A DNA stretch of 34,997 nt, from assembly GCA_021813685.1 (NCBI GenBank), contig JAKAJS010000013.1, positions 1 through 34,997 of the forward strand, in the 5' to 3' direction. Under the pieces are notes generated by a model. It did no database searches. It was not told the DNA's origin and saw nothing but the letters and a program-made list of their open reading frames with translations. The stretch is from Deltaproteobacteria bacterium (GTDB taxonomy: Bacteria; Desulfobacterota; Syntrophobacteria; Syntrophobacterales; Syntrophobacteraceae). Position 1 is the stretch's first letter. Each line of letters opens with the position of its first letter. A program made the position numbers and the translations under genes. This document shows positions 4,760-32,134 of the stretch, piece by piece.

Positions 4760-5132
4760 TGGCAATCCTGGACCGGTGTATGTCCTCAGGGAAAAAATCC
4801 CGTAACTTACCACACCCATTTCCAGGCAACCCGGCCGTCTCCAGCGAGACCCGCAGGCTTTCCGTCCCCGGCTCACGCCGGGTTTGGCTTTATCAGGTAG
4901 ATTTACTCTATAGAATGAAACACGCGCTGTCAAGACGAATCGAGCGATTTAGGCCAGATTCCAACTGCTTGTCTTGCTTTTACCATACATCCGACAGCGG
5001 CTTGACATCCCGTGTCCTGAAAATTCCTTTACAAAACTTAACCTCCATTAACAGATATTAACTCGATCTTCCCCGAAGCTTCTTATATTAATCCCATATT
5101 GAAAGAACTTCGAACCCAAAGGAGAAGACAGG

Positions 5133-5657
5133 ATGAAAAAGAATTTGACCGGATTTGCAATAGTTCTCGTGGCGGCACTGTGGATGAGCGGATCGTGGGT
5201 GTTTTTTAATTCCATTGCAAACGCCCAAAACACTTCGCCTTCCCCAGCCACGCCCCCTCAAACCCAAGCGCCGCCGGCCCAGCCCACCCCGCCCCCAACC
5301 CAACCGCACCATTGGAAGGGCAAGCACGGCTATGACAATTTTTGGAAGCGACTCAATCTGACCGAGAAGCAGAAAAAGGAAATCAAAGCCATCCGAGAAA
5401 AGGCGCGGCCCGAAATGCAACCTCTCATCAAAGAACTTAAAGAGGGACACAAAAAGCTCATGGCGCTCCAGAAAAGCGGCAGATTCGACGAGGCCAAGGT
5501 GCGCGCGATTGCCGAAGAACAGGGCAGGACCCTCACCAAGGTGATCATCGAACGAGAGCGCACGATGTACCAAATGAGAGAGGTATTGACTCCCGAACAG
5601 CGCGCAAAACTCGACCAGATGCGCCGTTCCTGGATGCACCACCATAAACACTGGTAA
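5133..5657 (+). CDS. Spy/CpxP-family periplasmic protein (LTXXQ motif)
   Basis: A 174-residue exported protein. Residues 1-31 form a signal peptide ending in ANA, followed by a Pro/Thr-rich, disordered linker (33-58). The helical core carries the two family motifs, LTEKQ at 76-80 and LTPEQ at 152-156. Spy and CpxP proteins are periplasmic ATP-independent chaperones or stress sensors, and CpxP inhibits the kinase CpxA. The His-rich ends (HHWKGKH, HHHKHW) could bind metal. A strong ribosome site (AAGGAG) precedes the ATG. A CpxA/CpxR-like pair lies 1.2 kb downstream on the other strand, so this is probably part of the same envelope-stress regulon, although a sulfotransferase gene now separates them. 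Confidence 0.85.
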   Translation: MKKNLTGFAIVLVAALWMSGSWVFFNSIANAQNTSPSPATPPQTQAPPAQPTPPPTQPHHWKGKHGYDNFWKRLNLTEKQKKEIKAIREKARPEMQPLIKELKEGHKKLMALQKSGRFDEAKVRAIAEEQGRTLTKVIIERERTMYQMREVLTPEQRAKLDQMRRSWMHHHKHW

Positions 5658-5697
5658 AAATCACAAAGACTAACCCCAAGTGGTTGCAAACCCATGT

Positions 5698-5737
5698 CCG
5701 GAGCCTTGCGGCAAGACCTGTCGCCGCAAGGCTCCGG
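5698..5737. terminator. perfect 15-bp stem-loop after the Spy/CpxP-like gene
   Basis: Positions 5698-5712 and 5723-5737 are perfect reverse complements (CCGGAGCCTTGCGGC and its mate) around a ten-base loop, 40 bases after the stop codon. The GC-rich stem is strong enough for a terminator, but no T-run follows, so it may instead be a REP-like element or an RNA-stabilising 3' hairpin. Confidence 0.6.
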
Positions 5738-5778
5738 CCTGCCGCATCGCCCCCTCCCGCGAAACGGTTGGGAAGTAA

Positions 5779-5807
5779 TAGACATTTTTTCGAAAATCCA
5801 CTATGCT
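5779..5807 (+). promoter_or_regulatory. candidate sigma-70 promoter for the sulfotransferase gene
   Basis: TAGACA (5779-5784) and TATGCT (5802-5807) are separated by exactly 17 bases, giving 5/6 and 4/6 matches to the consensus boxes. The implied leader is about 145 bases and includes a short AG-dinucleotide run near 5826-5840. No other gene lies between it and the ATG at 5959. Confidence 0.4.
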
Positions 5808-5958
5808 GCTTTGCATCGAATATAGTGAGAGAGAGAGAGCTATTTTCAGCAACCTGCAGCTTTGATCCATATCTTCCGACAGCAACATTACTGACTAAAG
5901 CGCCCCTAGCCGGTCCCGGCGTTTCGCGCTCCATTTTTGATTGAACGAGGATGGAACA

Positions 5959-6828
5959 ATGGAACCCTCAAACATCCTGATTTATTTGCACATACCAAAA
6001 ACGGCAGGAACAACCCTTAACTCCATACTCAAGCGTGAATACGGAAAGAAACGAACTATTACGATCGATCAGGCCGATTTCCAAAAATCCGTCTCTGAAC
6101 TGGGAGAGAGCACACTGAAATCCCGCCGCAAAGGCATGCTCATTAATGTCGAACACAGCGCCTTCGGCATTCATCGGTCGATTTCGTGTCCAAGCACATA
6201 TGTCACCATTTTAAGAGACCCGATAGCCAGGGTAATATCACACTACTACTACGTACGTGCCGTAAAGGATAACTCCCTTCACGATTTTATAGAATCCCGG
6301 CACATGAGCCTGGAAGAATTTGTCACCAGTGGTCTAACTCGTGAGACGGACAACGGACAAATCAGGCAACTCACCGACGCATATGATGTGCCGTTCGGAC
6401 AATGTACTGATACTTTACTGAATCAGGCTATTGATAACATTAACAACCATTTTTCCTTTGTAGGCCTAACCGAATTTTTCGATCAATCACTAATTAGTAT
6501 GTGTGAATTATATGGATGGAGAAAGTATCCTGTTTATGTCAAAAGGCTCAGAAACAAAAATAAGCCCATTGTGTCAGCTATACCTGACAGGACAATAGAA
6601 ATTATCAGAAAACAAAACGATTTGGACTGCCGATTATATTATTATGTAAAGTCAGGCTTCGGAAAGATCTGCTCTCCTGAATTTATTGGAAAAACCAAAC
6701 GTTTCCAAAGAATCAACCTGGTGTATTGCGCTATTAAAAAGCCAATTGCGCTTCAGAATTCGCTTCACCGCCCCATCGTAAAAAAGTTGGAAACCTTCAT
6801 CAAATCTCATAGAACCAACAATCAATAA
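5959..6828 (+). CDS. sulfotransferase-family protein
   Basis: A 289-residue protein of the PAPS-dependent carbohydrate sulfotransferase type. HIPKTAGTTL at residues 11-20 is the 5'-phosphosulfate P-loop, and the LRDPIARVISHYYY segment (about 85-98) carries the Arg and Ser of the 3'-phosphate site. It would move a sulfo group from PAPS to a cell-surface or secreted glycan; the substrate is not readable. The ATG at 5959 has AGGA at proper spacing; a TTG 18 bases upstream is less likely. The codon use is clearly AT-rich compared with its neighbours (runs of AAT, AAA, TAT, ATT), and it sits alone between the Spy-like gene and the Cpx-like pair, both signs of recent acquisition. Confidence 0.85.
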   Translation: MEPSNILIYLHIPKTAGTTLNSILKREYGKKRTITIDQADFQKSVSELGESTLKSRRKGMLINVEHSAFGIHRSISCPSTYVTILRDPIARVISHYYYVRAVKDNSLHDFIESRHMSLEEFVTSGLTRETDNGQIRQLTDAYDVPFGQCTDTLLNQAIDNINNHFSFVGLTEFFDQSLISMCELYGWRKYPVYVKRLRNKNKPIVSAIPDRTIEIIRKQNDLDCRLYYYVKSGFGKICSPEFIGKTKRFQRINLVYCAIKKPIALQNSLHRPIVKKLETFIKSHRTNNQ

Positions 6829-6836
6829 CCAGAACC

Positions 6837-6871
6837 AGCAACTGACACCCAGCAACTAATAACTAGCAACT
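6837..6871. repeat. three copies of AGCAACT at exact 14-bp period
   Basis: AGCAACT occurs at 6837, 6851 and 6865, so the copies are spaced exactly 14 bases apart, with diverged linkers. The last copy overlaps the stop codon of the sensor kinase on the minus strand. It may be a decayed tandem repeat at the boundary of the acquired sulfotransferase segment; no function can be read. Confidence 0.6.
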
Positions 6872-8344
6872 GCTCTTCGCCGGAAGTTCGATAGTGACGC
6901 TCAACCCGCCTTCCGGCGCGTTTTTCGCCCACACCCGCCCCCCGTGCCGTATGACCGCACGCTCCGTAATGGCAAGCCCCAGGCCCGTCCCTCCCCGCTT
7001 CCTGTCGCGCGCATCCCCCACTCGGTAAAAGGGGGAGAAAAGGTCGGCGAGCGACGATTCCGGAACTCCCGGTCCCTTGTCCAGCACCTCTATTACGGCA
7101 TGCGAGGAACCGGCATCTCTTTGCCGATAGCGGAGCGCAATCGTTACTTCGCTGTTTTCCGCCGTGTGGCGGATGGCATTGCGCAGCACGTTTTCCACCG
7201 CACTGCGCAGCAGTTCCCTGTTTCCCACCACAAAGCAGTTCTCGACGCAAACGACGTGGACCCTGCAGTTCCCCCCCTTCGCCTCGAAGTCGGCGTCGGC
7301 AGCCAGTTCCTCCACCAGTTCCCCCATGGCCACGGGCTCCTTCTCCAATTCTTCCACGCCGCTTTCCAAACGGGCCAGCATGAGGAGTTTTCCGATCAGC
7401 CCGTTTAGCCTTTCGGCCTCGAGCCCTATTCGATCCAGGGCGTTTGTCGTCTCCCTTTCCTCTCCCCGGCGTGCTATCTCCAGAGCGATGGTCAACCTCG
7501 CAAGCGGCGAGCGGAATTCGTGGGAGATGTCGCGCAAGAGACGCTTCTGCAAACTGATAAGAGATTCGAGCCGCTCGGCCATCTGGTCGAAATCCTTCCC
7601 CAGTTCTGCGATCTCATCGCGCCTTTTGCCCAAAACCGAGCCGACCCGAACCTTGAGGTCTCCGTCGGCGAGGTTTCTCGCTGCCGCCCCGAGCTTGCTG
7701 ATCGGTGTCGAGATATACCGGGCGAGCCAATAACATACCCCGCCCGCCGTGAGGAAGATGATGATGAGGTTCATCGTCCAGAACCGGTAATTGCCCAAAA
7801 GGAAGTGGTGAATCGGTATCCGTGTGATCAGCGTGTACTTTTTGCCGCTCGGACCTGCAAGCTCCTGGGCCAGAAACATATCCCGCCCGGTCCTTCTGAA
7901 GTCGAGCCCCGCCGGACTGTGGTGCAGGGCCAGAACTCGTACTTCCGCAGGCGCCACCCCCTCGGTAAGCATCCGGTTTCGGTCGTTGTAGAAATAAAAA
8001 TCGATGTCTACCGCCCTTTGAAGCTCGCGCACGTAGCGCAAAAACACCGTTTTTCCTTCCTGTTCGTATATCTGGATGGCTGTTTGACCCGAAAGCCGGA
8101 TGGAGTTTCCCGCGACGCTGGACCAGCGGTCATAGGCCCCGGGCTTGATCGTGAGATGGCCCTCTTTGGGCGGGCGGATGATGAGTCGAGCAAACCAGGG
8201 CAAGGCGAAAAAAGGGTGCGACTCCGTAGCCACGGCCGAAAGGAAGGAGGCAAAGCTCACAAGGGCCATCCCCACCCAGAACCAGAGGAAAATTTTTATG
8301 AAAAGGCTTCTCATCGAAATTCGCGCTCCGACTCCCCCGCTCAT
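6863..8344 (-). CDS. CpxA-like sensor histidine kinase
   Basis: A membrane-bound histidine kinase of 493 residues. Transmembrane helix 1 is at about 14-36, a periplasmic sensor region at 37-187, helix 2 at about 189-208, and a HAMP segment follows to about 262. The phospho-acceptor is His275 in LLRDISHEFRSPLARL, the exact style of the CpxA family. The ATPase domain shows the N-box (ENVLRNAIRHT), DKGPGVPE and GGTGLGLAI. The ATG at 8344 overlaps the stop of the upstream regulator gene (ATGA), so the two are translationally coupled; a second Met at 8314 (MRSLFIKIFLWFWVGMAL) matches the usual CpxA start. It should phosphorylate the neighbouring response regulator. A Spy/CpxP-like gene nearby supports an envelope-stress role. 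Confidence 0.9.
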   Translation of the reverse strand: MSGGVGARISMRSLFIKIFLWFWVGMALVSFASFLSAVATESHPFFALPWFARLIIRPPKEGHLTIKPGAYDRWSSVAGNSIRLSGQTAIQIYEQEGKTVFLRYVRELQRAVDIDFYFYNDRNRMLTEGVAPAEVRVLALHHSPAGLDFRRTGRDMFLAQELAGPSGKKYTLITRIPIHHFLLGNYRFWTMNLIIIFLTAGGVCYWLARYISTPISKLGAAARNLADGDLKVRVGSVLGKRRDEIAELGKDFDQMAERLESLISLQKRLLRDISHEFRSPLARLTIALEIARRGEERETTNALDRIGLEAERLNGLIGKLLMLARLESGVEELEKEPVAMGELVEELAADADFEAKGGNCRVHVVCVENCFVVGNRELLRSAVENVLRNAIRHTAENSEVTIALRYRQRDAGSSHAVIEVLDKGPGVPESSLADLFSPFYRVGDARDRKRGGTGLGLAITERAVIRHGGRVWAKNAPEGGLSVTIELPAKSSC

Positions 8345-9075
8345 TTCAGGGCGGTGTCCTTTTCAGACCTCGACGGATTGGCATAGACATAGCCGGCTCC
8401 CCGAACCGTCTTGATCCGTTCGAATTCGCCGATCCGGTGCCCAAGCTTTTTTCTGAGGCTGCTCAGATGCACGTCCACGCTGCGATCGAAGGCCGTGAGG
8501 GAACGCCCCAGGACTCCCTCGGCCAGTTGCTCGCGCGTCACCACGTGACCGGCTGCCCGCAGCAGCATCTCGAGACAACCAAACTCCACCGAAGTCAAAT
8601 CGACCCTTTCGCCGTTTCGGCGCACTATCCGACTTCCCGTGTCCAGTTCCACATCGCCCACACGGATCGTTTCGGGCGTAAACGGGGAAGCGCTCCTGTC
8701 ATGGCGGTCTTTTGTGCGACGCAAAATGGCCCTGGCGCGCGCAATCAACTCGCGGGGATTGAACGGCTTTGGCAGGTAGTCGTCCGCACCCATCTCGAGC
8801 CCTACGATGCGATCGACCTCTTCATCTCGCGCAGTCAACATCAGAACGGGCGTATCGAGTTGGGAGCGCAACCGCTGGAGAACCTCGAAACCGTTCATCC
8901 CGGGCAGCATGATGTCCAGAACTATCAGATCGTACTCACCCGCTTCCGATACGGCCCTTTGCAATCCCTTTTCACCGTCGTGGACCGCACTGATTGAAAA
9001 CCCCTCCGGCTTCAGATAATCAGCCAGCAACTCGCATAACTCGGTATCGTCGTCTATTATCAGAATGCGGCTCAT
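8341..9075 (-). CDS. CpxR-like OmpR-family response regulator
   Basis: A 244-residue regulator with an N-terminal receiver and a C-terminal winged-helix DNA-binding domain. The receiver has the acidic pocket (IIDDD, 6-10), the phosphorylatable Asp54 in VLDIMLPGMNG, Thr81 and Lys103 (LPKPFNP). The effector domain (about 135-235) ends in the OmpR-type SVDVHLSSLRKKL and IKTVRGAGYVY. GGAGAGGG precedes the ATG. It is the first gene of a two-gene operon with the CpxA-like kinase, and the divergent gene is cheV. It is called CpxR-like by its partner and similarity; target promoters were not identified. Confidence 0.9.
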   Translation of the reverse strand: MSRILIIDDDTELCELLADYLKPEGFSISAVHDGEKGLQRAVSEAGEYDLIVLDIMLPGMNGFEVLQRLRSQLDTPVLMLTARDEEVDRIVGLEMGADDYLPKPFNPRELIARARAILRRTKDRHDRSASPFTPETIRVGDVELDTGSRIVRRNGERVDLTSVEFGCLEMLLRAAGHVVTREQLAEGVLGRSLTAFDRSVDVHLSSLRKKLGHRIGEFERIKTVRGAGYVYANPSRSEKDTALK

Positions 9076-17272: not shown

Positions 17273-18703
17273 ATGTACTGGAGTATGTTTGACAGATTGT
17301 TTTCAGGCGTTCATAATGCCTCGGCAAAAAGGAAAGCGACGCTTTGCGACTCTCTTGAAAATCGTGATTTCATGGACACTCCAAAAATCAGCCATAGTGA
17401 ACCGGTCGTCGAAACGGGGGGCAGTGCCGCCGCCGAAAAGATGTGCGCCCGACTCGCAAGCCTCAAGGAGTGCCTGCGGGTATCCGGTCTCATAAATTCG
17501 AGCCTGGAACTCGACCAGGTGCTCGAAAACATCATGACCACGTCGCGCTCGATCTTGAAGGCCGATGCGTGCAGCCTCATGCTGGTTGAGGAAAAGAGCG
17601 GCGAACTGGTGTTCGAGGTGGCGCAGGGACCGGTTGCCGATAAGCTCAAAGGGGGCATGCGAATCAGCAGGGGGCAGGGAATCGCCGGCAGAGTCTTTGA
17701 ATCCGGGGAGTCTCTTCTGATTGAAAACGCCTACGAAGACCCGCGGTTTGACCCGGAATTCGACCGGAGGACCGGATACCGCACGCGGTCGATCCTGTGC
17801 GTTCCGTTAAAAATCAAGGAACGGGTGATCGGCGTATCTCAGGTCATAAACAGGCTCGACGGATCGGATTTTAGCGAGGAAGACAGAGAGACTCTTACCC
17901 TTCTTTGCGCCAACGCGGCCGTTGCGGTGGAAAACGCTCGGTTGCACCAAAAGATCCTGCACGCCCGGCAGATCGAGCAGGACATGGCGTTTGCGAAAAG
18001 CGTGCAATTGAGTTTTTTGCCCCGCGCCATGCCAAAGCTCGACGGGTTCGGCTTCTGTGCCCACTACCAGCCCGCAAGGGAAATCGGGGGCGATTTTTAT
18101 GATTTCATTCCTCTCGACGGGGATCGCCTGGGCATCCTGATCGGGGATGTTTCGGGGAAAGGTGTTCCGGCCGCCCTCTTTATGGCCAGATTTACCACCG
18201 ATTTTCACCTCCTCGCCATTCGGGAGAAGGACCCCGAAAAGCTGATGCGCCGCATCAACGAAACCGTCTGCGAACAGAGCTGTCGCGGCATGTTCGTCAC
18301 CCTTCTCTACATGGTGTTTGAAAAAAACAGCGGTGAGGCGTTCTATATGAATGCGGGACATCTTCCGCCGGTGCTCTGGAACAGTTCGAGGGGGGAATAC
18401 GCTGTTTTGAACCGCCACGGCGGGCCGCCGCTGGGCATAATGCCCGATCAGCGCTACACCCCGGCCAGGTTGTCGCTTGCGCCCGGCACGTGCGTGTTAC
18501 TCGCAACCGACGGGCTCATGGAGGCCAAAAACCGCTGCGGGGAGTTCCCGGGGCTCGAAGGGATAGAAAAATGGCTCAGAGCCGGCAGTTCGGACGCTGA
18601 GTCCGTTCTGTCGCGCCTCTCCATTTCCCTTTCGCAGTTTTCCGGGGAGTGCCCGCAGTCCGACGATATTACGCTGGTTCTGGCACAATACAGGGGGGCA
18701 TAA
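17273..18703 (+). CDS. GAF-domain PP2C phosphatase (RsbU/SpoIIE type)
   Basis: A 476-residue soluble protein. A GAF sensor domain spans about 75-222 (GQGIAGRVFESGESLLI, RSILCVPLKIKERVIGV), a short coiled linker follows, and a PP2C-type phosphatase spans about 240-474 with metal-binding Asp274 (GGDFYDFI), Asp292 (IGDVSGKGVPAAL), LATDGLMEAKN and the C-terminal SDDITLV. Proteins of this type dephosphorylate a phosphoserine STAS protein. A STAS gene and its probable kinase follow directly. GGGAG precedes the ATG; an alternative Met at residue 34 would not affect the domains. First gene of a co-directional run reaching about 23.7 kb. Confidence 0.92.
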   Translation: MYWSMFDRLFSGVHNASAKRKATLCDSLENRDFMDTPKISHSEPVVETGGSAAAEKMCARLASLKECLRVSGLINSSLELDQVLENIMTTSRSILKADACSLMLVEEKSGELVFEVAQGPVADKLKGGMRISRGQGIAGRVFESGESLLIENAYEDPRFDPEFDRRTGYRTRSILCVPLKIKERVIGVSQVINRLDGSDFSEEDRETLTLLCANAAVAVENARLHQKILHARQIEQDMAFAKSVQLSFLPRAMPKLDGFGFCAHYQPAREIGGDFYDFIPLDGDRLGILIGDVSGKGVPAALFMARFTTDFHLLAIREKDPEKLMRRINETVCEQSCRGMFVTLLYMVFEKNSGEAFYMNAGHLPPVLWNSSRGEYAVLNRHGGPPLGIMPDQRYTPARLSLAPGTCVLLATDGLMEAKNRCGEFPGLEGIEKWLRAGSSDAESVLSRLSISLSQFSGECPQSDDITLVLAQYRGA

Positions 18704-19141
18704 TTGACTGCAGCCTCTTTTACAGGCTCCGTCTTTTTGGAGGTACCCTCAGACCCTCTCGTGATGTCTGCCGTGAGAGCCGTAACGGAAAAAGTTTCAC
18801 TCGCAGCGGGCCTTGGCGGCGAAGAGGCGGATAAACTCGTGCTCGCGGTCGATGAGGCCTGCACGAATGTGATCCGGCACGCCTACGGGAACCGGCGCGA
18901 CGGGAGAATAGCGATAACCTTCGCTCCCGGCCCGGATCGCCTGGAGATCACAATCCGGGATTTCGGCTCCGGAGGAGACCCGGCGACATTTCGCGGACGC
19001 GATCTCACAGAACTGCGCTCCGGCGGGCTCGGCCTCCATTTCATAGAGTCCTCGGTGGACCAAATGGAGTATACTCGGCCGGCTGGAGGGGGCATGGTGT
19101 TAAAGCTGGTCAAATTCATTTCCAAACAGGAGAAAGCATAG
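18704..19141 (+). CDS. RsbW/SpoIIAB-like serine kinase (anti-sigma-type HATPase)
   Basis: A 145-residue GHKL ATPase of the anti-sigma-factor kinase type. The N-box is LAVDEACTNVIRHAY with Glu51 and Asn55, the G1 box is IRDFGSGG with Asp86, and the G2 box is SGGLGLHFI. It begins with TTG directly after the phosphatase stop, with a GGGGGG ribosome-like run; no ATG exists before the first domain strand, so the TTG start is credible. Family members phosphorylate a Ser in a STAS protein and bind either that protein or a sigma factor. No sigma factor gene is in the window, so its target is likely the adjacent STAS protein, or an unlinked sigma factor. Confidence 0.88.
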   Translation: MTAASFTGSVFLEVPSDPLVMSAVRAVTEKVSLAAGLGGEEADKLVLAVDEACTNVIRHAYGNRRDGRIAITFAPGPDRLEITIRDFGSGGDPATFRGRDLTELRSGGLGLHFIESSVDQMEYTRPAGGGMVLKLVKFISKQEKA

Positions 19142-19143
19142 CA

Positions 19144-19488
19144 TTGAATATACAAGTCGATGAGAGAAAACCGGGAGTTTTCGTGGTCTCCCTTGCGGGC
19201 GACCTCGACATGAGCTCTTCGCCTCAGGTGCGAAAACTTCTTCTTCCCGTTTTCCGCAAAGGCGTTTCGCACGTCATCGTGGATCTGAAAGACGTCCCCT
19301 ACATTGACAGCTCGGGGATAGCCACCTTCGTGGAATCGCTCCAGCTTTCGCGTAAGAGCCAGATCCGCTTCTCGCTTGCCGGGGCATGCCACAGGGTAGA
19401 ATCGATCTTCGAACTCGCCCACCTCAGGAGCATCTTCGAGATGGCTCCCGGAACGGAGGATCTGCTCGGGGGGGAACGGGCCAGGTGA
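19144..19488 (+). CDS. STAS-domain protein, MlaB-like or anti-sigma antagonist
   Basis: A 114-residue single STAS domain with VVSLAGDLDMSS near the start and YIDSSGIATFVES at 53-65; Ser57 is the position phosphorylated in SpoIIAA/RsbV proteins. It starts at TTG (19144) with AGGAG about 12 bases upstream. Its stop overlaps the mlaE start (GTGA), as expected for a subunit made with the transporter. In E. coli the STAS protein MlaB is a subunit of the MlaFEDB lipid transporter and contacts the ATPase. Here the protein lies next to both a cognate-looking kinase/phosphatase pair and mlaE, so it could be RsbV-like, MlaB-like, or both. The context argues for a phospho-regulated MlaB; that is inference. 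Confidence 0.88.
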   Translation: MNIQVDERKPGVFVVSLAGDLDMSSSPQVRKLLLPVFRKGVSHVIVDLKDVPYIDSSGIATFVESLQLSRKSQIRFSLAGACHRVESIFELAHLRSIFEMAPGTEDLLGGERAR

Positions 19489-20279
19489 GTTCGACCGCTG
19501 TTCGCCGGGAAAGCAGGATCTTGCTTTTTCTCAGGCATCTGACGAGTTTTTCCTGCTTTTTTGCGGAAACGATGAAGTGGCTGGTGATAAAACCCTTTCA
19601 GGGAAAGCCCCTTCGGTTGCGCTCGACCATCACGCAGATGGATGAGGTGGGGGTAAAATCGGTTCCCATCGTCGCCCTGGTTTCCTTTGTCATCGGCGTT
19701 ATCCTGGTGCTCCAGACGGCCTACCAGCTGGATAAATTCGGTGCGGTAAGTTACGCCGCAAGCCTTGCCGGAGTTGCCCTCACCCGCGAGATGGCCCCTC
19801 TTCTTACCGCCATCGTGCTGGCCGGGCGGGTGAGCGCGGCATTTACCGCGGAACTGGGCACCATGATGGTCACCGAGGAGATCACCGCCCTGGAGGTAAT
19901 GGCCATATCCCCCATTTCCTATCTGGTCGTTCCCCGCTTTCTGGCAATGATCGTCATGCTCCCGTGTCTCACCGTTCTGTCCGATGCGATCGGCATGGCG
20001 GGAGGATTTTTCGTGGGAACGCTTGCCATCGGCATACGGCCTGCGCTCTATATTCACGAAACGCTCCACGCTCTTTTGGTAAAAGATATCGTGAGCGGTC
20101 TGGTAAAAAGCGTGATTTTCGCCGCCATTATAGCCATGGTCGGCTGCTACACGCCATTTGCGGTAAAGGGCGGCTCGGAGGGGGTGGGAAAGGCGACAAT
20201 GATTTCCGTTGTGGCCTCTCTCATCACCATAATCCTTGCCGACTGTCTGTTTACGGCAATCTTTTACATGTTCCTGTGA
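19485..20279 (+). CDS. mlaE: MlaE-family ABC permease
   Basis: A 264-residue integral membrane permease of the retrograde phospholipid (Mla) transporter. The family hallmark is LTREMAPLLTAIVLAGRVSA followed by AFTAELGTMMVTEEITALEVM, and there are about five hydrophobic segments (for example VPIVALVSFVIGVILVLQTAY and ATMISVVASLITIILADCLF). The frame stays open upstream, but the real start is most likely the GTG at 19485, which overlaps the STAS stop codon and places the start at the usual domain boundary. The ATPase gene overlaps its end in the same GTGA manner. Confidence 0.92.
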   Translation: MSSTAVRRESRILLFLRHLTSFSCFFAETMKWLVIKPFQGKPLRLRSTITQMDEVGVKSVPIVALVSFVIGVILVLQTAYQLDKFGAVSYAASLAGVALTREMAPLLTAIVLAGRVSAAFTAELGTMMVTEEITALEVMAISPISYLVVPRFLAMIVMLPCLTVLSDAIGMAGGFFVGTLAIGIRPALYIHETLHALLVKDIVSGLVKSVIFAAIIAMVGCYTPFAVKGGSEGVGKATMISVVASLITIILADCLFTAIFYMFL

Positions 20280-21085
20280 GGTGGTGGTCTCTGGAATCGC
20301 TAATAGAGGTGAGAAATCTTTGCAAAAGCTTCGAGGGCCGTGCGGTGCTGGAAGGGATAAACCTCACGGTCGAGCGGGGAAGCGTTTTTGCCATCATGGG
20401 CGGCAGCGGCTGCGGAAAGACGACCCTGCTGCGAAACCTCATCGGGGTCATTCGTCCCGATTCCGGCCAAATCCTGGTCGGCGGAGAGGATATAACGCGG
20501 TTCGACGAGAGCCGGATGGACGGGTACCGGAAACGCTTCGGAATGCTTTTCCAGATGGGGGCGCTTCTGAACTCGCTAAGCGTACACGATAACATCGCGC
20601 TTCCCTTGCGGGAGCACACCGAACTGGACGAAAAAATCATCGGCGTGATGGTCAAAATGAAGCTCGAGCTGGTCGGACTTCGAGATTTCGAGCACCTGAA
20701 GCCCTCCCAGCTTAGCGGCGGCATGCAAAAGAGGGTGGCCCTGGCCCGTGCCCTGGCACTGGACCCGGAAATTGTTTTCTACGACGAACCGACCTCCGGG
20801 CTGGACCCGGTGGTGACCGGGGTAATCGGACAGCTCATTTCGGATCTGAGCAAACGGATGGGCATCACCTCGGTGGTGGTCACCCACGATATCGGCAGTG
20901 CGTTCAGTATAGCCGACAAGGTGGTAGTCCTGTTTCGCGGCAGGGTGGTGGCCGAAGGCACACCGGAGGAGATCCGGCAATCCCCCGATCCGCTTGTCCA
21001 GCAGTTCATCCACGGTAGACCCGACGGTCCCATACCGCTTCGCCAATCCAGCCGGGATTACCTCGAGGATCTGCTCGATATTTAA
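20276..21085 (+). CDS. mlaF: MlaF-type ABC transporter ATPase
   Basis: A 269-residue ATP-binding subunit. Walker A is GGSGCGKT (about 42-49), the Q-loop Gln is at 93 (LFQMGALLNSLSV, typical of MlaF), the signature LSGGMQKR is at 146-153, Walker B ends in Asp170/Glu171 (FYDEPTSGLDP) and the H-loop is VVTHDI with His204. The GTG at 20276 overlaps the mlaE stop (GTGA) and gives MRWWSLESLIEV as the N-terminus, so translation is coupled. It powers phospholipid transfer through MlaE. The C-terminus (about 245-269) extends past the fold, as in the MlaF family. Confidence 0.93.
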   Translation: MRWWSLESLIEVRNLCKSFEGRAVLEGINLTVERGSVFAIMGGSGCGKTTLLRNLIGVIRPDSGQILVGGEDITRFDESRMDGYRKRFGMLFQMGALLNSLSVHDNIALPLREHTELDEKIIGVMVKMKLELVGLRDFEHLKPSQLSGGMQKRVALARALALDPEIVFYDEPTSGLDPVVTGVIGQLISDLSKRMGITSVVVTHDIGSAFSIADKVVVLFRGRVVAEGTPEEIRQSPDPLVQQFIHGRPDGPIPLRQSSRDYLEDLLDI

Positions 21086-21105
21086 CACGAAAGAGATTTT
21101 TTGAA

Positions 21106-22077
21106 ATGCAGGTTTTCCGATCGGACATACGTGTCGGGCTGGTGGTTTTGACCGCCTTTGTTCTATTCGTCTCCGGAATCTTCGCCGTGAGCGGTCTGCG
21201 TTCCCTGTGGAGCGATAAAAAGACGCTTACGATCCTCTTTCGCTATTCCGACGGGATAGCGAAGGGGGCGCCGGTCCGGTGGGCGGGGTTCGATGTGGGG
21301 CAGGTGCAGCGGATACGCATCGCCCCGGGGGTGGCCGACCGCATCGCGATAACCGTCGCGATTTCGCCAAAGGCCCGAATCCGGAAGGATTCGCGCGCCC
21401 AGATCCGGGATCTGGGAATGATGGGATCAAAGTACGTGGAGATAAGCCCCGGCTCCCCGAACTCCCCCGAGTTGCCTCCGGGCGCAACGATAGAGGGCCA
21501 AAGCCCGGCTTCCCTCTCACAAATCCTTGAAACGGGAGGCAAGGTCGCCTCCGGACTGGTCGATCTGGTCTCGCAGGCCAAACAGCTCGTCTCCGAGGTC
21601 CGAAACGACTACCAGATCAAGCAAACGGTCCAAAACGCGAACGCGCTCCTCGTCCAGCTTCGAAAAAATACCGCCGATCTCGGACCCATCATGAAAAACA
21701 TCAAACAGGCTACGGGCAGCGGCGGCGAGCAACTCACGGCTCTTTTGCGGGAAGTGCGCCGCACAAACCGCGAATTGCAAACAAGGATCGGTACGGTCGG
21801 AGACCAGTTCGCCAAAACGATGGGTCGGGCGGACAAAGGACTGGCGGAGGCGCAAAAAACCGTCAAAGGAGTCCGCTCGGTCGTCGCTTCCAACAAAGAC
21901 AACATGGATTCCATTCTCGCGCACCTGAACGAAACCTCCCGAAACCTGGAGGCGCTCAGCGAAGACCTGCGGCTCCACCCTTGGAAGGTGGTGTGGAAAG
22001 CCGATGGGAAGATCGGCCATACCAACGCCGCCGACTGGAGGCAAAAGGGCAGGATAGGACCTTATGGCAAGGAATAG
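21106..22077 (+). CDS. mlaD: MlaD-type MCE-domain substrate-binding protein
   Basis: A 323-residue protein anchored by an N-terminal helix (about 10-30). The MCE domain spans about 38-118 with the typical YSDGIAKGAPVRWAGFDVGQV, then DLGMMGSKYVEISPG. MCE rings bind the lipid passing between membranes. The remaining 200 residues are a long predicted coiled coil (ETGGKVASGLVDLVSQAKQ onward), so this is the long MlaD form rather than the 183-residue E. coli one; such tails may form a tunnel across the periplasm. No separate mlaC follows, which fits a self-sufficient long MCE protein. The 3' end overlaps the next gene by 14 bases. Confidence 0.9.
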   Translation: MQVFRSDIRVGLVVLTAFVLFVSGIFAVSGLRSLWSDKKTLTILFRYSDGIAKGAPVRWAGFDVGQVQRIRIAPGVADRIAITVAISPKARIRKDSRAQIRDLGMMGSKYVEISPGSPNSPELPPGATIEGQSPASLSQILETGGKVASGLVDLVSQAKQLVSEVRNDYQIKQTVQNANALLVQLRKNTADLGPIMKNIKQATGSGGEQLTALLREVRRTNRELQTRIGTVGDQFAKTMGRADKGLAEAQKTVKGVRSVVASNKDNMDSILAHLNETSRNLEALSEDLRLHPWKVVWKADGKIGHTNAADWRQKGRIGPYGKE

Positions 22078-22912
22078 CGCGCTCTTTGTGATGTTTCTCC
22101 TGGTTCTTTCCGCATGCGCCTCGGGACCGCAAGGCCCCTATGACCGCGGGGTTGAACAGTATGAAATCGGCCATGTCGGCAAATCCATTTCGGATTACAA
22201 ACAGGCGATCGCACTGCGCCCCGACGATCCGCTGCCAAGATTCAATCTGGCGGTGATCTACCAGGACGAAGGAAGACTCGCAGAAGCCGAAAAGCTCTAC
22301 AGGGAGATAGTGAAGGGGCACCCCGGGTTTTCACCTGCATGGGCAAACCTCGCCTCCATCATGGAAAAGCGCGGCCGGGCGGGAAAGGCCGAAAAGCTCT
22401 ACCTGCGCGCCATGAAAGCCGACGGCGGCAGCTGCGCCTCGAGCTCTCAGTACGGTTTTTTTCTCCTGCGGCAGGGACGTGGCGAGGAGGCCGAAAGGAT
22501 CTTCACAAAGTCACTCAAAAACGATGCGCGCTGCGCAAACGGTTGGTTCGGTCTGGGACTCATCGCAGAAAAAAAAGGCGACACGCGGGCGGCTCTGCGA
22601 GACTTTGACCGGGACTCGATTTATAATCCTGCCGATATCGAGGCCTACGTGCGCTCGGCCGACATCCTGCTAACCCTCGGAGACACGCGGCGTGCCGCGG
22701 GCCTTCTCGAAAAGGCGGAAAAACTCGATCCGAAAAATGGCGCCCTCAATCTGAAGCTCGGGAGAGTGCTTCTCACAAACGGAGAATTGAAAAAGGCGGA
22801 AGAAGCGCTGGAGCGGGCGAAAAAGAACGGGGCACCACCCGCCGAGTGCGAGCGGGAATTGAGCCGGGTGTACCGAAAACTGAGCGTGCAGGCAGCCGAC
22901 GCAGCGAGGTGA
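22064..22912 (+). CDS. TPR lipoprotein of the Mla-type operon
   Basis: A 282-residue lipoprotein with a signal peptide ending in the lipobox LSAC (residues 15-18, Cys18 lipidated). Residues about 25-275 are six or more tetratricopeptide repeats, for example FNLAVIYQDEGRLAEAEKLY and NLKLGRVLLTNGELKKAEEA. It starts inside the last 14 bases of mlaD, so it is translationally coupled and probably belongs functionally to the transporter. Asp/Glu are absent at the +2 residue (Ala follows Cys18), which favours outer-membrane sorting in Gram-negatives. A scaffold or docking role for the MCE assembly, in place of MlaA/MlaC, is inference. Confidence 0.85.
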   Translation: MARNSALFVMFLLVLSACASGPQGPYDRGVEQYEIGHVGKSISDYKQAIALRPDDPLPRFNLAVIYQDEGRLAEAEKLYREIVKGHPGFSPAWANLASIMEKRGRAGKAEKLYLRAMKADGGSCASSSQYGFFLLRQGRGEEAERIFTKSLKNDARCANGWFGLGLIAEKKGDTRAALRDFDRDSIYNPADIEAYVRSADILLTLGDTRRAAGLLEKAEKLDPKNGALNLKLGRVLLTNGELKKAEEALERAKKNGAPPAECERELSRVYRKLSVQAADAAR

Positions 22913-22915
22913 AAA

Positions 22916-23734
22916 GTGGCCGAAAAGATTCCGGACGGACCTGGAAGCGATCGAAGCGGGAAAAGCTCCCTCATACGGTCCCTGCCGGGCTCGATCGGAT
23001 GGAGGCTGAAATTTGCCTGTTCGGCCATCGTGGATTTGTGCCTCCCCCGCATCTGCGCGGACTGCCGCAAAATCGGGACTCTCCCCGAAAAATCCTGGTG
23101 CCCCGCCTGCTGGGAAAAAATTCCGCATATAGCCCCGCCCCTTTGTCCGGGATGCGGAAGACCCTTCCGGGATGCGTTGGGTTCATCCGACCACCTCTGC
23201 GGCGACTGCATCGAGAGAAGATTTCATTTCGATTCCGCAAGATCTGCGGTTTTGCATGAGGGGACCGTTCGCACGCGCGTCCACGAGTTTAAATTCGGCG
23301 GGCAGCTACGATGGACGCCCTGCCTGGTGGACCTTCTGGAGACCGCCTACGTAGCCTGGGGACCGGACGCCCCCGATTTTATCGTTCCGGTGCCGCTGCA
23401 TACCAGGCGGCTCGCCCGGAGAGGCTTTAACCAGGCCGGCCTGCTCGCCCGCGAACTCGGACGAAAGATAAAGACGCCGGTTTTACCCTGCGCCCTCGTT
23501 CGAAAAAATTCGACTCCGCCCCAAACACGCCTCAAACGCGATGAGCGGTTGAAAAACGTGAAGGGCGCCTTCGAAATCTCTCGTGACGCAAAAGTGCGTG
23601 GTTGCAGGATTCTTCTCATCGATGATGTTTTCACAACAGGCACGACACTCAGCGAATGCGCAAAGGTGCTGAAAAGGAAGGGCGGAGCCTCGGAAGTCTA
23701 TGCGCTCACGGTAACGAGGGCATTGCCGGATTAG
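22916..23734 (+). CDS. ComF-family phosphoribosyltransferase-like protein
   Basis: A 272-residue ComF/GntX protein. The N-terminal part has four CxxC-type pairs: Cys47/50, Cys62/65, Cys77/80 and Cys95/98, two zinc ribbons' worth. The C-terminal part is a type I phosphoribosyltransferase fold with the PRPP loop ILLIDDVFTTGTTLSEC (about 229-245). ComF proteins are linked to DNA uptake; their enzyme activity is poorly defined. The GTG start has GAGGTG just upstream and lies three bases after the lipoprotein stop, so it is the last gene of the operon, but its function seems unrelated to lipid transport. Confidence 0.9.
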   Translation: MAEKIPDGPGSDRSGKSSLIRSLPGSIGWRLKFACSAIVDLCLPRICADCRKIGTLPEKSWCPACWEKIPHIAPPLCPGCGRPFRDALGSSDHLCGDCIERRFHFDSARSAVLHEGTVRTRVHEFKFGGQLRWTPCLVDLLETAYVAWGPDAPDFIVPVPLHTRRLARRGFNQAGLLARELGRKIKTPVLPCALVRKNSTPPQTRLKRDERLKNVKGAFEISRDAKVRGCRILLIDDVFTTGTTLSECAKVLKRKGGASEVYALTVTRALPD

Positions 23735-24274: not shown

Positions 24275-24619
24275 TTACTTTCCCAGTTCCTTCAGAATCC
24301 CTTCGATCTGTCCGATCAAAACGGGAATATCATTCTGTGCCGTAAACCATACCATTTCCAAGTCAACGCCGAAGTAGCCGTGGATCAATTTGTCCCTCAT
24401 TCCGCCTACACCTTGCCATCGAATCTCCGGGTGCATGGAGCGCATACCGCGTGAAACATGTTTGACAGCCTCCCCTATGATTTCAAGTTGTCGGATCACC
24501 GCATCCTGAAGCTGATGGTTTGCCTCAAACTGAACGCGGTCAACACGTTCCAGATATTCAAGGATGCGTCCGGACGCATCGAGGACATGCCGGAGATAGA
24601 CGGAATCATCTCTTTCCAT
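24275..24619 (-). CDS. HepT-type HEPN toxin (DUF86)
   Basis: A 114-residue HEPN-domain protein of the HepT/DUF86 family. The RNase motif RX4HXY is intact: Arg75, His80 and Tyr82 in RDKLIHGYF. In the characterised MntA/HepT pairs the HEPN protein is an RNA-cleaving toxin, and MntA neutralises it by adding AMP to the motif Tyr. The gene overlaps the 3' end of the upstream nucleotidyltransferase gene by 14 bases, the usual antitoxin-first arrangement. Complete length and intact motif suggest it is functional. Confidence 0.9.
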   Translation of the reverse strand: MERDDSVYLRHVLDASGRILEYLERVDRVQFEANHQLQDAVIRQLEIIGEAVKHVSRGMRSMHPEIRWQGVGGMRDKLIHGYFGVDLEMVWFTAQNDIPVLIGQIEGILKELGK

Positions 24620-24905
24620 ATATTACCAGAAGGTCTTTGAGAATCCGGTCTTTGAGATACGGGCTGATAGCCGACTCTGTCAACAGGTCTACCTTTCGTG
24701 CCAGGGCCTCCGAGAGTTCCCTCTCGAGCTCTACCAGAGAAAGGAGGCTTATGGGTTTGGCAAATCGCACCAGGATATCGATATCGCTGCCTTCAGAGTC
24801 CTCTCCCCTGGCAGTCGATCCGAAAACCCCCACCATCGAAGCATCGTGCTCTCGGCACATTCTAATTATAAGATCACGTTCTGCGCTGTTCATACTGTTT
24901 CCCAT
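24606..24905 (-). CDS. MntA-type nucleotidyltransferase antitoxin
   Basis: A 99-residue minimal nucleotidyltransferase. The motif GSX10DXD is intact: Gly29-Ser30, then Asp41 and Asp43 in GSTARGEDSEGSDIDI. It should adenylylate and silence the HEPN toxin encoded next. The listed start is the ATG at 24905; a second ATG at 24893, preceded by GGGA, is equally plausible and does not touch the fold. No ribosome site precedes the first ATG. Confidence 0.9.
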   Translation of the reverse strand: MGNSMNSAERDLIIRMCREHDASMVGVFGSTARGEDSEGSDIDILVRFAKPISLLSLVELERELSEALARKVDLLTESAISPYLKDRILKDLLVIYGKR

Positions 24906-30580: not shown

Positions 30581-32134
30581 ATGGTGGATAAGTCGTTCGA
30601 TTTCTATCGGGCCATATCGGAGGAACTCGACCCCGAGAGGCTGCAGCAAAAATTTCTGACTGCCCTGCTGGATCTGCAAAATGTCGAGCGGGGATCGATC
30701 TGGGTGCGCAGTGAAACGGGCTACACCTGCATCGAAGCGGTGGGGGCACAAAGCGAAAACATCAAGTCGATGACCATCGGTTTCGGCCAGAGCAGCATCG
30801 TTGGCTGGGTTATCGAAAACGGCAAGATGACGGTGGCCGAGGCGGGCAAGGATGCGCGTCATTTCTGGCAGGCCGAACGGCAGATGGAGATCAAGAGCAG
30901 GCTGATACTCTGTTTTCCGTTGTTTCTAAGGAGCGGCGAGGTCTACGGGGCGGTACAGATAATCGATACGAGCGCAGGGGGCAATCACCTGAACCTCGAC
31001 CAGGGCTACCTCGATCTCTTGCAGCAGCTCATAGACATGGGGTCGATAGCGCTCAGCAATTCCCTGGTTTTTTCGAAGCAGGCGCAGGAAAATCTCAAAC
31101 TAAAGCAGACCCTCGAAGCGATAAGCGACCGGGACGTGATGGTCGGAAACAGCGCTGCGCTGCTCGGAGTGAGGAAGCGGGCCGCCGAATACGCAAGAAC
31201 CGATTTCCCGGTGCTCATCACCGGGGAAAGCGGCTCGGGAAAGGAACTGCTTGCCAGGGAGATCCACCGGCTGAGCGACAGGAGCAGGGGGCCGTTTCTG
31301 GCTCAAAATTGCAGCTGCATTCCGGACACTCTGCTGGAAAGCGAACTTTTCGGCCATGAAAAGGGTGCATTTACGGGGGCTCTCAAGACCAAGGCAGGGC
31401 TTTTCGAGGCCGCTAACGAGGGGACCGTTTTTCTCGATGAGATCGGCGACATGCCCCTGCAGCTGCAGGCAAGGATTCTTCGGGTGATCCAGGACGGAGA
31501 GATAAAGCCGATCGGGAACACGCGATCCAAAAAGGTGAACGTCAGGATTATTTCGGCCACCAATCGCGATTTACAAAGTGAGATCGGCAGGGAAAATTTT
31601 CGGGAGGATCTTTTCTACCGGCTCAATGTCTTGCCTCTGCGCGTACCCTCGCTTCGCGAAAGGCCCGAGGACATTCCCCTGCTTCTGGACCATTTTTTGA
31701 GCAGGGAGGCTCTGCGGCTGGGAGCCGCGTGCAAGAGCTTTTCGGAAGAAGCCCTCGAGTTTCTGCTCGACCACGATTGGCCGGGAAACATTCGGGAGCT
31801 TGAAAATTTTGTGAAGCACATCATCGTGATCACTCCCGGCCAGTGTATCACGAGGCAAGACCTGTCGCATCATTTCCTTCCCACAACGGCCTGCCGCCAA
31901 AAGGATGGGCCGCCGGAAAAGGGTGCGCCCGACGGAGTCGAAGGGGCCGCGGCAGGAAACGGTGCGCAGGCGCAGAACCTTTTTGAGGGCTGTACCTGGG
32001 AGGAACTGGAACGTAGATATGTGCTCTATCTTCTGGAGAAGAACAAATGGCACATCACCCGCTCGGCAAGGGAGGCGGGGGTGAACCGTTCGACTTTCGA
32101 TTCGCGAATGAAAAAACTCAATATCAGAAAATGA
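30581..32134 (+). CDS. GAF-domain sigma-54-dependent activator (bEBP)
   Basis: A 517-residue enhancer-binding protein. A GAF sensor spans about 12-165, the AAA+ domain about 187-425 with Walker A GESGSGKE (215-222), the sigma-54 contact loop GAFTGA (262-267) and Walker B FLDEIGD (Asp286/Glu287), and a Fis-type HTH ends the protein (about 475-515: HITRSAREAGVNRSTFDSRM). It activates RNA polymerase with sigma-54 in response to a ligand or redox signal sensed by the GAF domain. GGAG precedes the ATG. A Cys-rich protein starts right behind it, so that may be its signal partner. I found no -24/-12 promoter in the window that I would assign to it. Confidence 0.94.
   Translation: MVDKSFDFYRAISEELDPERLQQKFLTALLDLQNVERGSIWVRSETGYTCIEAVGAQSENIKSMTIGFGQSSIVGWVIENGKMTVAEAGKDARHFWQAERQMEIKSRLILCFPLFLRSGEVYGAVQIIDTSAGGNHLNLDQGYLDLLQQLIDMGSIALSNSLVFSKQAQENLKLKQTLEAISDRDVMVGNSAALLGVRKRAAEYARTDFPVLITGESGSGKELLAREIHRLSDRSRGPFLAQNCSCIPDTLLESELFGHEKGAFTGALKTKAGLFEAANEGTVFLDEIGDMPLQLQARILRVIQDGEIKPIGNTRSKKVNVRIISATNRDLQSEIGRENFREDLFYRLNVLPLRVPSLRERPEDIPLLLDHFLSREALRLGAACKSFSEEALEFLLDHDWPGNIRELENFVKHIIVITPGQCITRQDLSHHFLPTTACRQKDGPPEKGAPDGVEGAAAGNGAQAQNLFEGCTWEELERRYVLYLLEKNKWHITRSAREAGVNRSTFDSRMKKLNIRK

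Follow-up and report, generated by a model that had tools for sequence, protein, structure and literature searches.

The closest described systems are the lipid transporter MlaFEDB of Escherichia coli and the partner-switching modules, in which a PP2C phosphatase and a kinase act on a STAS protein. The locus studied here joins genes of both kinds in one operon; it lies in a 34,997-nucleotide stretch of DNA (the window) from a Deltaproteobacteria bacterium, which is contig C40 (JAKAJS010000013.1) of a 5.06 Mb draft genome. In E. coli, MlaB, the STAS subunit, is required for MlaF to remain in the complex, and its Thr52, in helix 2, lies near the centre of the MlaF interface, where the change T52E weakens binding (PMC7367683). 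Control of MlaB by phosphorylation was already proposed for E. coli with no kinase supplied (PMC5016091, PMC7367683), and in 2020 the control of active MlaB was termed an open question (PMC7367683). In SiaABCD of Pseudomonas aeruginosa, a PP2C phosphatase and a kinase are combined with a STAS-like protein (PMC7647112, PMC8457831); unphosphorylated SiaC binds and activates its effector, the diguanylate cyclase SiaD, and phosphorylation by SiaB prevents that (PMC8457831). In Vibrio fischeri, phosphorylation at Ser56 inactivates another STAS protein, SypA (PMC4517449).

The window locus was compared with these systems by its gene content. Pfam and NCBIfam domains confirmed a co-directional run of eight genes on the forward strand (17273-23734), encoding a GAF-PP2C phosphatase, an HATPase_c_2 kinase, a STAS protein, MlaE, MlaF, MlaD, a TPR lipoprotein and ComF. 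The first seven, which the preliminary description had placed in one run, make up the finding, and comF is an ordinary neighbour. The phosphatase, of the SpoIIE/RsbU type, probably spans 17372 to 18703, because an in-frame ATG at 17372 matches the start of several aligned homologues (a longer start is listed at 17273). The RsbW/SpoIIAB-type serine kinase (18704-19141) abuts the phosphatase stop, carries the N-box DEACTN and a GGLG motif, and has RsbW as its best NCBIfam match, under that family's cut-off. After a gap of two bases follows the STAS gene (19144-19488), whose product matches TIGR00377 (ant_ant_sig) above the cut-off and reaches only 25.1 of the 90 bits set for mlaB_1; an RsbV-like STAS would here stand in for MlaB. 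The mlaE-type permease gene (19485-20279; MlaE profile score 252.8 bits) overlaps the STAS gene by the four bases GTGA, as previously described, and the mlaF-type ATPase gene (20276-21085; PRK11831, 287.1 bits, under the cut-off of 441) overlaps mlaE in the same way. The mlaD-type gene (21106-22077) encodes an MCE protein of 323 residues, with the MCE domain at 38-116 and about 200 residues after it, and the TPR protein (22064-22912, by Pfam) has an N-terminus that reads by eye as lipobox-like.

The operon thus holds one PP2C phosphatase, one HATPase_c_2 kinase and one single-domain STAS protein, together with MlaE, MlaF and MlaD. It shares mlaE, mlaF, mlaD and a single STAS gene with E. coli MlaFEDB, and differs in its RsbV-like STAS, which has Ser at the site and a longer C-terminus, in the adjacent kinase and phosphatase genes, and in the long MlaD tail. 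It also has no mlaC or mlaA (the rest of the genome was not searched for them); among relatives, mlaC occurs at three loci (L060, L113 and L176) and mlaA at L113. A true Mla system has been defined by an MlaD without a long C-terminal region and by MlaC and MlaA in the genome (PMC7790496). The window operon is therefore regarded as an MCE transporter of the Mla type and not as a true Mla. With RsbU/RsbW/RsbV and SpoIIAA/SpoIIAB of Bacillus it shares the domain types, the phosphosite, the kinase motifs and the STAS fold; unlike them, it contains transporter genes instead of a sigma gene, and its STAS has MlaB-like residues (Ala60 and Glu64).

Conservation was assessed among 97 genomes, 16 of which, the window genome included, have a close STAS orthologue (at least 50 percent identity). 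The order PP2C-kinase-STAS-mlaE-mlaF is kept in 12 of these 16; in one of the 12 (G011) the contig ends inside mlaF, and in another (G009) mlaE is frameshifted. In the latter draft, mlaE occupies two overlapping frames (L049:9227-10017, reverse strand), a frameshift or an assembly error. The TPR lipoprotein gene follows mlaD in 10 of the 11 other operons of the window type, and the eleventh is that of G011, cut by the contig end. Across 395 genomes of the phylum, a close mlaE (E up to 1e-65) was found in five, each with the kinase no more than 0.5 kb away. Close kinases (E up to 1e-15) came from ten genomes: six adjoin mla genes (the window genome G000, and G012, G074, G111, G323 and G308), one (G024) pairs with PP2C while the STAS gene ends an mlaF-E-D-C operon elsewhere on the contig, one (G095) lies on a 3 kb contig, and two (G085 and G121) are discussed below.

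The same parts recur in other arrangements. In G308 the kinase gene is divergent to mlaF-mlaE-mlaD-STAS-mlaA-mlaC-PP2C, where Pfam confirmed MlaA, MlaC and PP2C; in Desulfospira joergensenii DSM 10085 the kinase and GAF-PP2C genes are divergent to mlaF-E-D-STAS-mlaC. G024 has mlaF-E-D-C-STAS, with PP2C-kinase at another place on the contig; G323 has kinase-STAS-mlaE-F-D; G041 and G045 have kinase-STAS-mlaF-E-D, and G043 has the same up to the contig end. Since the parts are kept and their order is changed, function is favoured over inertia.

We then surveyed loci from the side of the STAS protein, scanning the genome_contigs collection with the pattern DSSGIAT[FL][VI], and analysed the best 80 of 290 confirmed loci, which repeat several of the genomes already counted. 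The pattern was derived from an alignment of mostly mla-linked STAS, so the counts describe this STAS family and not STAS proteins at large. In 69 of the 80 loci, mlaE and/or mlaF lies on the same strand at a distance of up to 4.5 kb; a kinase is present within 5 kb in every one of the 69, and in 37 there is also a PP2C within 6 kb. By our own grouping of record titles, which for draft genomes may be wrong, the 69 loci fall under nine phylum-level names (Desulfobacterota/Deltaproteobacteria, Nitrospinota, Nitrospirota, Omnitrophota, Hydrogenedentes, Acidobacteria, Planctomycetes, Latescibacterota and Proteobacteria), plus two unassigned. Eleven loci are without Mla; five of them (L139, L148, L150, L169 and L193) are no more than about 2.6 kb from a contig end, two (L121 and L129) have about 2 kb downstream, and four (L127, L137, L174 and L191) have flanks of 6.5-8 kb. 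No mlaE or mlaF was detected at the single Verrucomicrobia locus, at a contig end, or at two of three Zetaproteobacteria loci, and the third gave a weak mlaE match only (61 bits). Three Mariprofundaceae/Ghiorsea records carry kinase-STAS pairs: that of L159 is downstream of weak mlaE/mlaD-like matches on the same strand, that of L193 downstream of a weak mlaD match, and that of L191 has no Mla match.

For the control, we started from MlaE. From 114 MlaE matches in 59 genomes of the phylum, 60 unfused loci were fetched, leaving out frames longer than about 370 residues that looked STAS-fused, low-scoring matches, others already in hand and the known positives (G000:C40, G074:C7 and G111:C50); several stretches were short at contig ends. 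A kinase was found in none of the 60 and a STAS in one, of the Thr type; with the three known positives counted, the kinase figure is 3 of 63. This control and the several gene orders speak against chance linkage or operon inertia. G000:C39, L067 (about 4982-6073) and many MlaE frames of the phylum longer than 370 residues have a STAS-like domain ahead of MlaE, apparently in one frame, as a putative built-in MlaB.

The STAS protein itself was examined at the residues that matter to a kinase and to MlaF. The preliminary description had named Ser57 as the phosphorylatable residue. The window STAS reads D55-S56-S57-G58, and alignments place the D-S of RsbV and SpoIIAA on D55-S56, so that Ser56 is the phosphosite equivalent and Ser57 was dropped. 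The established sites we take to be Ser56 in RsbV, which aligns with the window Ser56, and Ser58 in SpoIIAA. In an AlphaFold2 model of the monomer (mean predicted local distance difference test score 91.8), Ser56 begins helix 2 (residues 56-71). Ser56 takes the place of E. coli MlaB Thr52, both being equated with the SpoIIAA site (PMC5016091, PMC7367683). A Foldseek search with the model returned RsbV, TM1442 and other anti-sigma antagonists as the best matches, and also found MlaB of E. coli and P. aeruginosa (7ch7_E and 7ch8_L).

In a first alignment of 23 STAS, reached by protein similarity or via the kinase and not by the scan pattern, all 23 keep D55-S56-S57-G58, Ala60 and Glu64; among them are the STAS of G111, G308 and G323, which were reached via the kinase. 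A second comparison used 44 STAS (43 beside mla genes and one from G004), ten MlaB from kinase-less operons of the phylum and 13 other STAS. The scan pattern contains Ser56 and Ala60, which are thus preselected in the 44, and does not contain Glu64. At position 56, all 44 of these STAS and all 13 other STAS have Ser, while the ten kinase-less MlaB all have Thr. Ala60 is found in 44 of 44, in 10 of 10 kinase-less MlaB and in none of the 13 other STAS, and Glu64 in 44 of 44, 9 of 10 and 3 of 13, respectively. The loci of the 13 control STAS span about 2-12 kb; eight of them are related to one another and have SSAG, and at L030 an MlaF-like gene lies next to the STAS gene on the opposite strand. 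The kinase-less STAS-mlaF-mlaE-mlaD operons (L064, L069-L075, L084 and L233) share with the window mlaFED, a separate STAS gene and a tailed MlaF, and differ in the Thr at the site, a shorter STAS and the absence of a kinase or phosphatase match in the fetched stretch. On account of residues 56, 60 and 64, this STAS joins a kinase-substrate site and an MlaB-like helix 2 in one protein.

The MlaF of the window aligns with its E. coli counterpart from end to end (query 5-267, chain 4-266) and terminates in SRDYLEDLLDI. Its Y262, L266 and L267 are placed on E. coli Y261, L265 and L266, which insert at the MlaF-MlaB interface, by the offset at the alignment end and the same Y-x3-L-L spacing; judged by sequence, the window MlaF keeps the C-terminal extension predicted to dock at that interface. 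Tails of at least 62 residues past the H-loop occur in 53 of 53 loci of the STAS-based survey, in 10 of 10 with kinase-less MlaB and in 10 of 47 controls, counts which omit frames cut by contig ends, scores under 200, genes with no neighbouring MlaE and those with no H-loop pattern. A strict Tyr-x3-hydrophobic-hydrophobic pattern holds in only 22 of the 53, many Nitrospinota tails ending like DYGEELKEM; for this reason, we relied on tail length and on a looser pattern (51 of 53, 10 of 10 and 8 of 47, respectively). On the regulatory side, the kinase N-box pattern was matched in 72 of 77 picks, the misses being two wrong open reading frames and three kinases with another residue before Glu, and the window STAS and kinase combine a Ser at the start of helix 2 with the N-box and G-boxes. 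In the 13 genus-level PP2C that aligned properly (G005 left out), all four PP2C motifs are present by eye. The kinase and STAS genes are adjacent in most loci, and the distance matrices of the two proteins correlate (r = 0.72, with 0.17 as the highest value from permutations; 61 loci); we give this correlation little weight, since co-inheritance of the cluster yields the same signal.

From these results, we consider it likely that the STAS protein is the MlaB equivalent of the operon's MlaFED-type transporter and is gated by a phospho-switch at Ser56 with the kinase and the GAF-PP2C phosphatase. The scheme is proposed by analogy with SiaABCD, from which it would differ in that the effector is an ATP-binding cassette (ABC)-type lipid transporter. 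In its unphosphorylated form, the STAS would bind MlaF by its helical face (helix 2 from Ser56) and hold the ATPase in the assembled, active transporter. The RsbW-type kinase would phosphorylate Ser56 and bind the same face, so that MlaF would lose its partner and transport would stop. A signal sensed by the GAF domain would lead the PP2C phosphatase to strip the phosphate, and transport would resume. The phosphorylation, the competition, the direction of the switch (phosphorylated meaning off) and a ligand of the GAF domain are inferred. The idea of an MlaB under kinase and phosphatase control, put forward in the preliminary description, is well supported by the gene order in many lineages, by the re-arranged operons and by the residue signatures, once the residue is corrected to Ser56.

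Several observations weigh against this reading. In G004 and G008, which are among the 16 genomes counted above, the trio of regulators is retained and no mlaE orthologue was found, these being drafts of 91 and 88 percent completeness, with the G008 contig ending about 2 kb past STAS; the trio can thus persist without this transporter. In two more (G001 and G010) the STAS, which has DSSG, is an orphan, as neither a kinase nor an mlaE orthologue was found, and two of the ten close kinases of the phylum (G085 and G121) sit in generic PP2C-STAS-kinase modules without mla genes. The STAS sequence is nearer to RsbV and TM1442 than to MlaB, and the four PP2C motif patterns match 29, 36, 38 and 18 of 39 PP2C picks and so are not uniform. 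From E. coli, the MlaB change T52A keeps binding and abolishes ATPase activity (PMC5016091), so a catalytic role of the site, instead of one in binding or assembly, is possible, and in pull-downs the C-terminal tail of MlaF was dispensable for MlaB binding (PMC7367683).

Some loci beside these cases were noted in their own right. The orphan STAS of G010 (L050:1930-2271) adjoins a gene for an ABC1/UbiB-type atypical kinase (L050:121-1827, reverse strand). G008 (L137, about 7917-8498) and G004 (L174, about 7887-8468) each have another STAS, which contains DSSGIAT and is extended at the N-terminus, and no mlaE, mlaF or kinase match was found in the fetched flanks. The window genome has a further PP2C-STAS-kinase module (G000:C284, about 5490-7051; L068), whose STAS has SSAG; the 7 kb fetched there gave no match to MlaE or MlaF. 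As the same was true of the stretches fetched for G085 and G121, we treated all three modules as unrelated.

The persistence of the trio in G004 and G008, together with the closeness of STAS and kinase to RsbV and RsbW, would also suit an ordinary anti-sigma partner switch, in which the kinase would have a sigma factor encoded elsewhere as its second target, with the mla genes as co-transcribed output or neighbours. Candidates for such a factor exist, as sigma-70 region 2 matches were found elsewhere in 20 of 20 genomes examined (166 matches in total, with complete lists for G000, G004 and G008). However, among the stronger matches, which were listed, none is closer than 10 kb to the STAS or the kinase, the nearest being about 14 kb away in G323 and 15-16 kb away in G008. 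In the window genome, none of the seven matches is on the window contig, which upholds the earlier statement that the operon has no sigma factor; the gene at 30581-32134 encodes a sigma-54 activator, not a sigma factor. The preliminary description had held that regulators kept together without mla genes and with a sigma factor would speak against it, and only the former was seen, in G004 and G008. Moreover, the parts stay together in re-arranged operons, where the STAS gene lies among the mla genes, the STAS has helix 2 residues that are MlaB-like and mostly absent from the 13 other STAS, and no second STAS was detected by profiles beside these mla genes. We therefore discarded a plain anti-sigma module as the sole explanation, given the lack of a listed sigma match within 10 kb and the mla linkage in re-arranged operons, and consider the anti-sigma account as a whole improbable.

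Two further accounts keep the STAS as MlaB. It may bind MlaF while the switch has several outputs, such as the genus's second Mla system or some other effector, which we regard as possible but on the unlikely side and which is compatible with the preferred explanation. In eight genomes (G000, G001, G003, G005, G006, G007, G009 and G010), this STAS is itself the best match to the MlaB profile (weaker STAS matches exist). In seven of them (not G000, whose contig starts inside its second mlaFED), the MlaF of the second mlaFED is tailed, and no STAS match occurs in the 5-12 kb that were fetched, nor was a STAS seen by eye in the 700 bases upstream of the second mlaF (L076-L082). A STAS shared with this second mlaFED, which has no STAS match of its own, would explain the orphan STAS of G001 and G010. 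This support is indirect, however, and in G002, G004 and G008 the second Mla has a dedicated MlaB next to it, with G004 and G008 still keeping the trio. As to the alternative raised earlier, that another STAS serves as MlaB, a second MlaB-type STAS, where found, adjoins a different Mla operon. Still less probable than the anti-sigma account is a constitutive, structural MlaB, in which Ser56 has a structural or catalytic part and the kinase and phosphatase act on something else. Such a role would fit the E. coli T52A result and the state of 2020, when phosphorylation of Thr52 had yet to be shown. Against it stand the Ser that is invariant in the 23 STAS and replaced by Thr in all ten kinase-less MlaB of the phylum, and the kinase-STAS adjacency with its correlation, though the latter could come from co-inheritance alone.

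Two features near the operon complete the description of the window. A promoter-like sigma-70 match (TTGACA, 17 bases, CATAAT) lies upstream of the operon on the forward strand at 17289..17317; it is suggestive only, since one such match was found where shuffled sequences gave 2.2 on average. On the reverse strand, at 24275-24905, a HepT-like ribonuclease gene is paired with a nucleotidyltransferase gene, the layout of a HepT/MntA-type toxin-antitoxin system.

The preliminary description knew of no Mla system controlled in this way. In the open-licence literature, as far as its text was available, we likewise recognised no MlaB kinase or phosphatase and no such operon, most subscription journals and all bioRxiv preprints lying outside that scope; the phosphorylation of MlaB, by contrast, had already been published as a hypothesis. 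The parts and that hypothesis are thus known, and the partner switch with a lipid-transporter output is probably new. These natural operons pair the transporter with a candidate kinase and phosphatase, in several gene orders, under nine phylum-level names and in one named strain, Desulfospira joergensenii DSM 10085, and so make the question of MlaB control directly testable. It seems to us somewhat probable that they represent a class of envelope lipid transporters, spread across many phyla, in which one STAS protein would be both kinase substrate and transporter subunit, with flux switched post-translationally by partner switching and the STAS possibly common to two transporters in some genomes. 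This would be the first ABC-transporter output of partner switching as far as known, and, if the proposal is true, an ABC lipid transporter would join the outputs of partner switching other than sigma factors.

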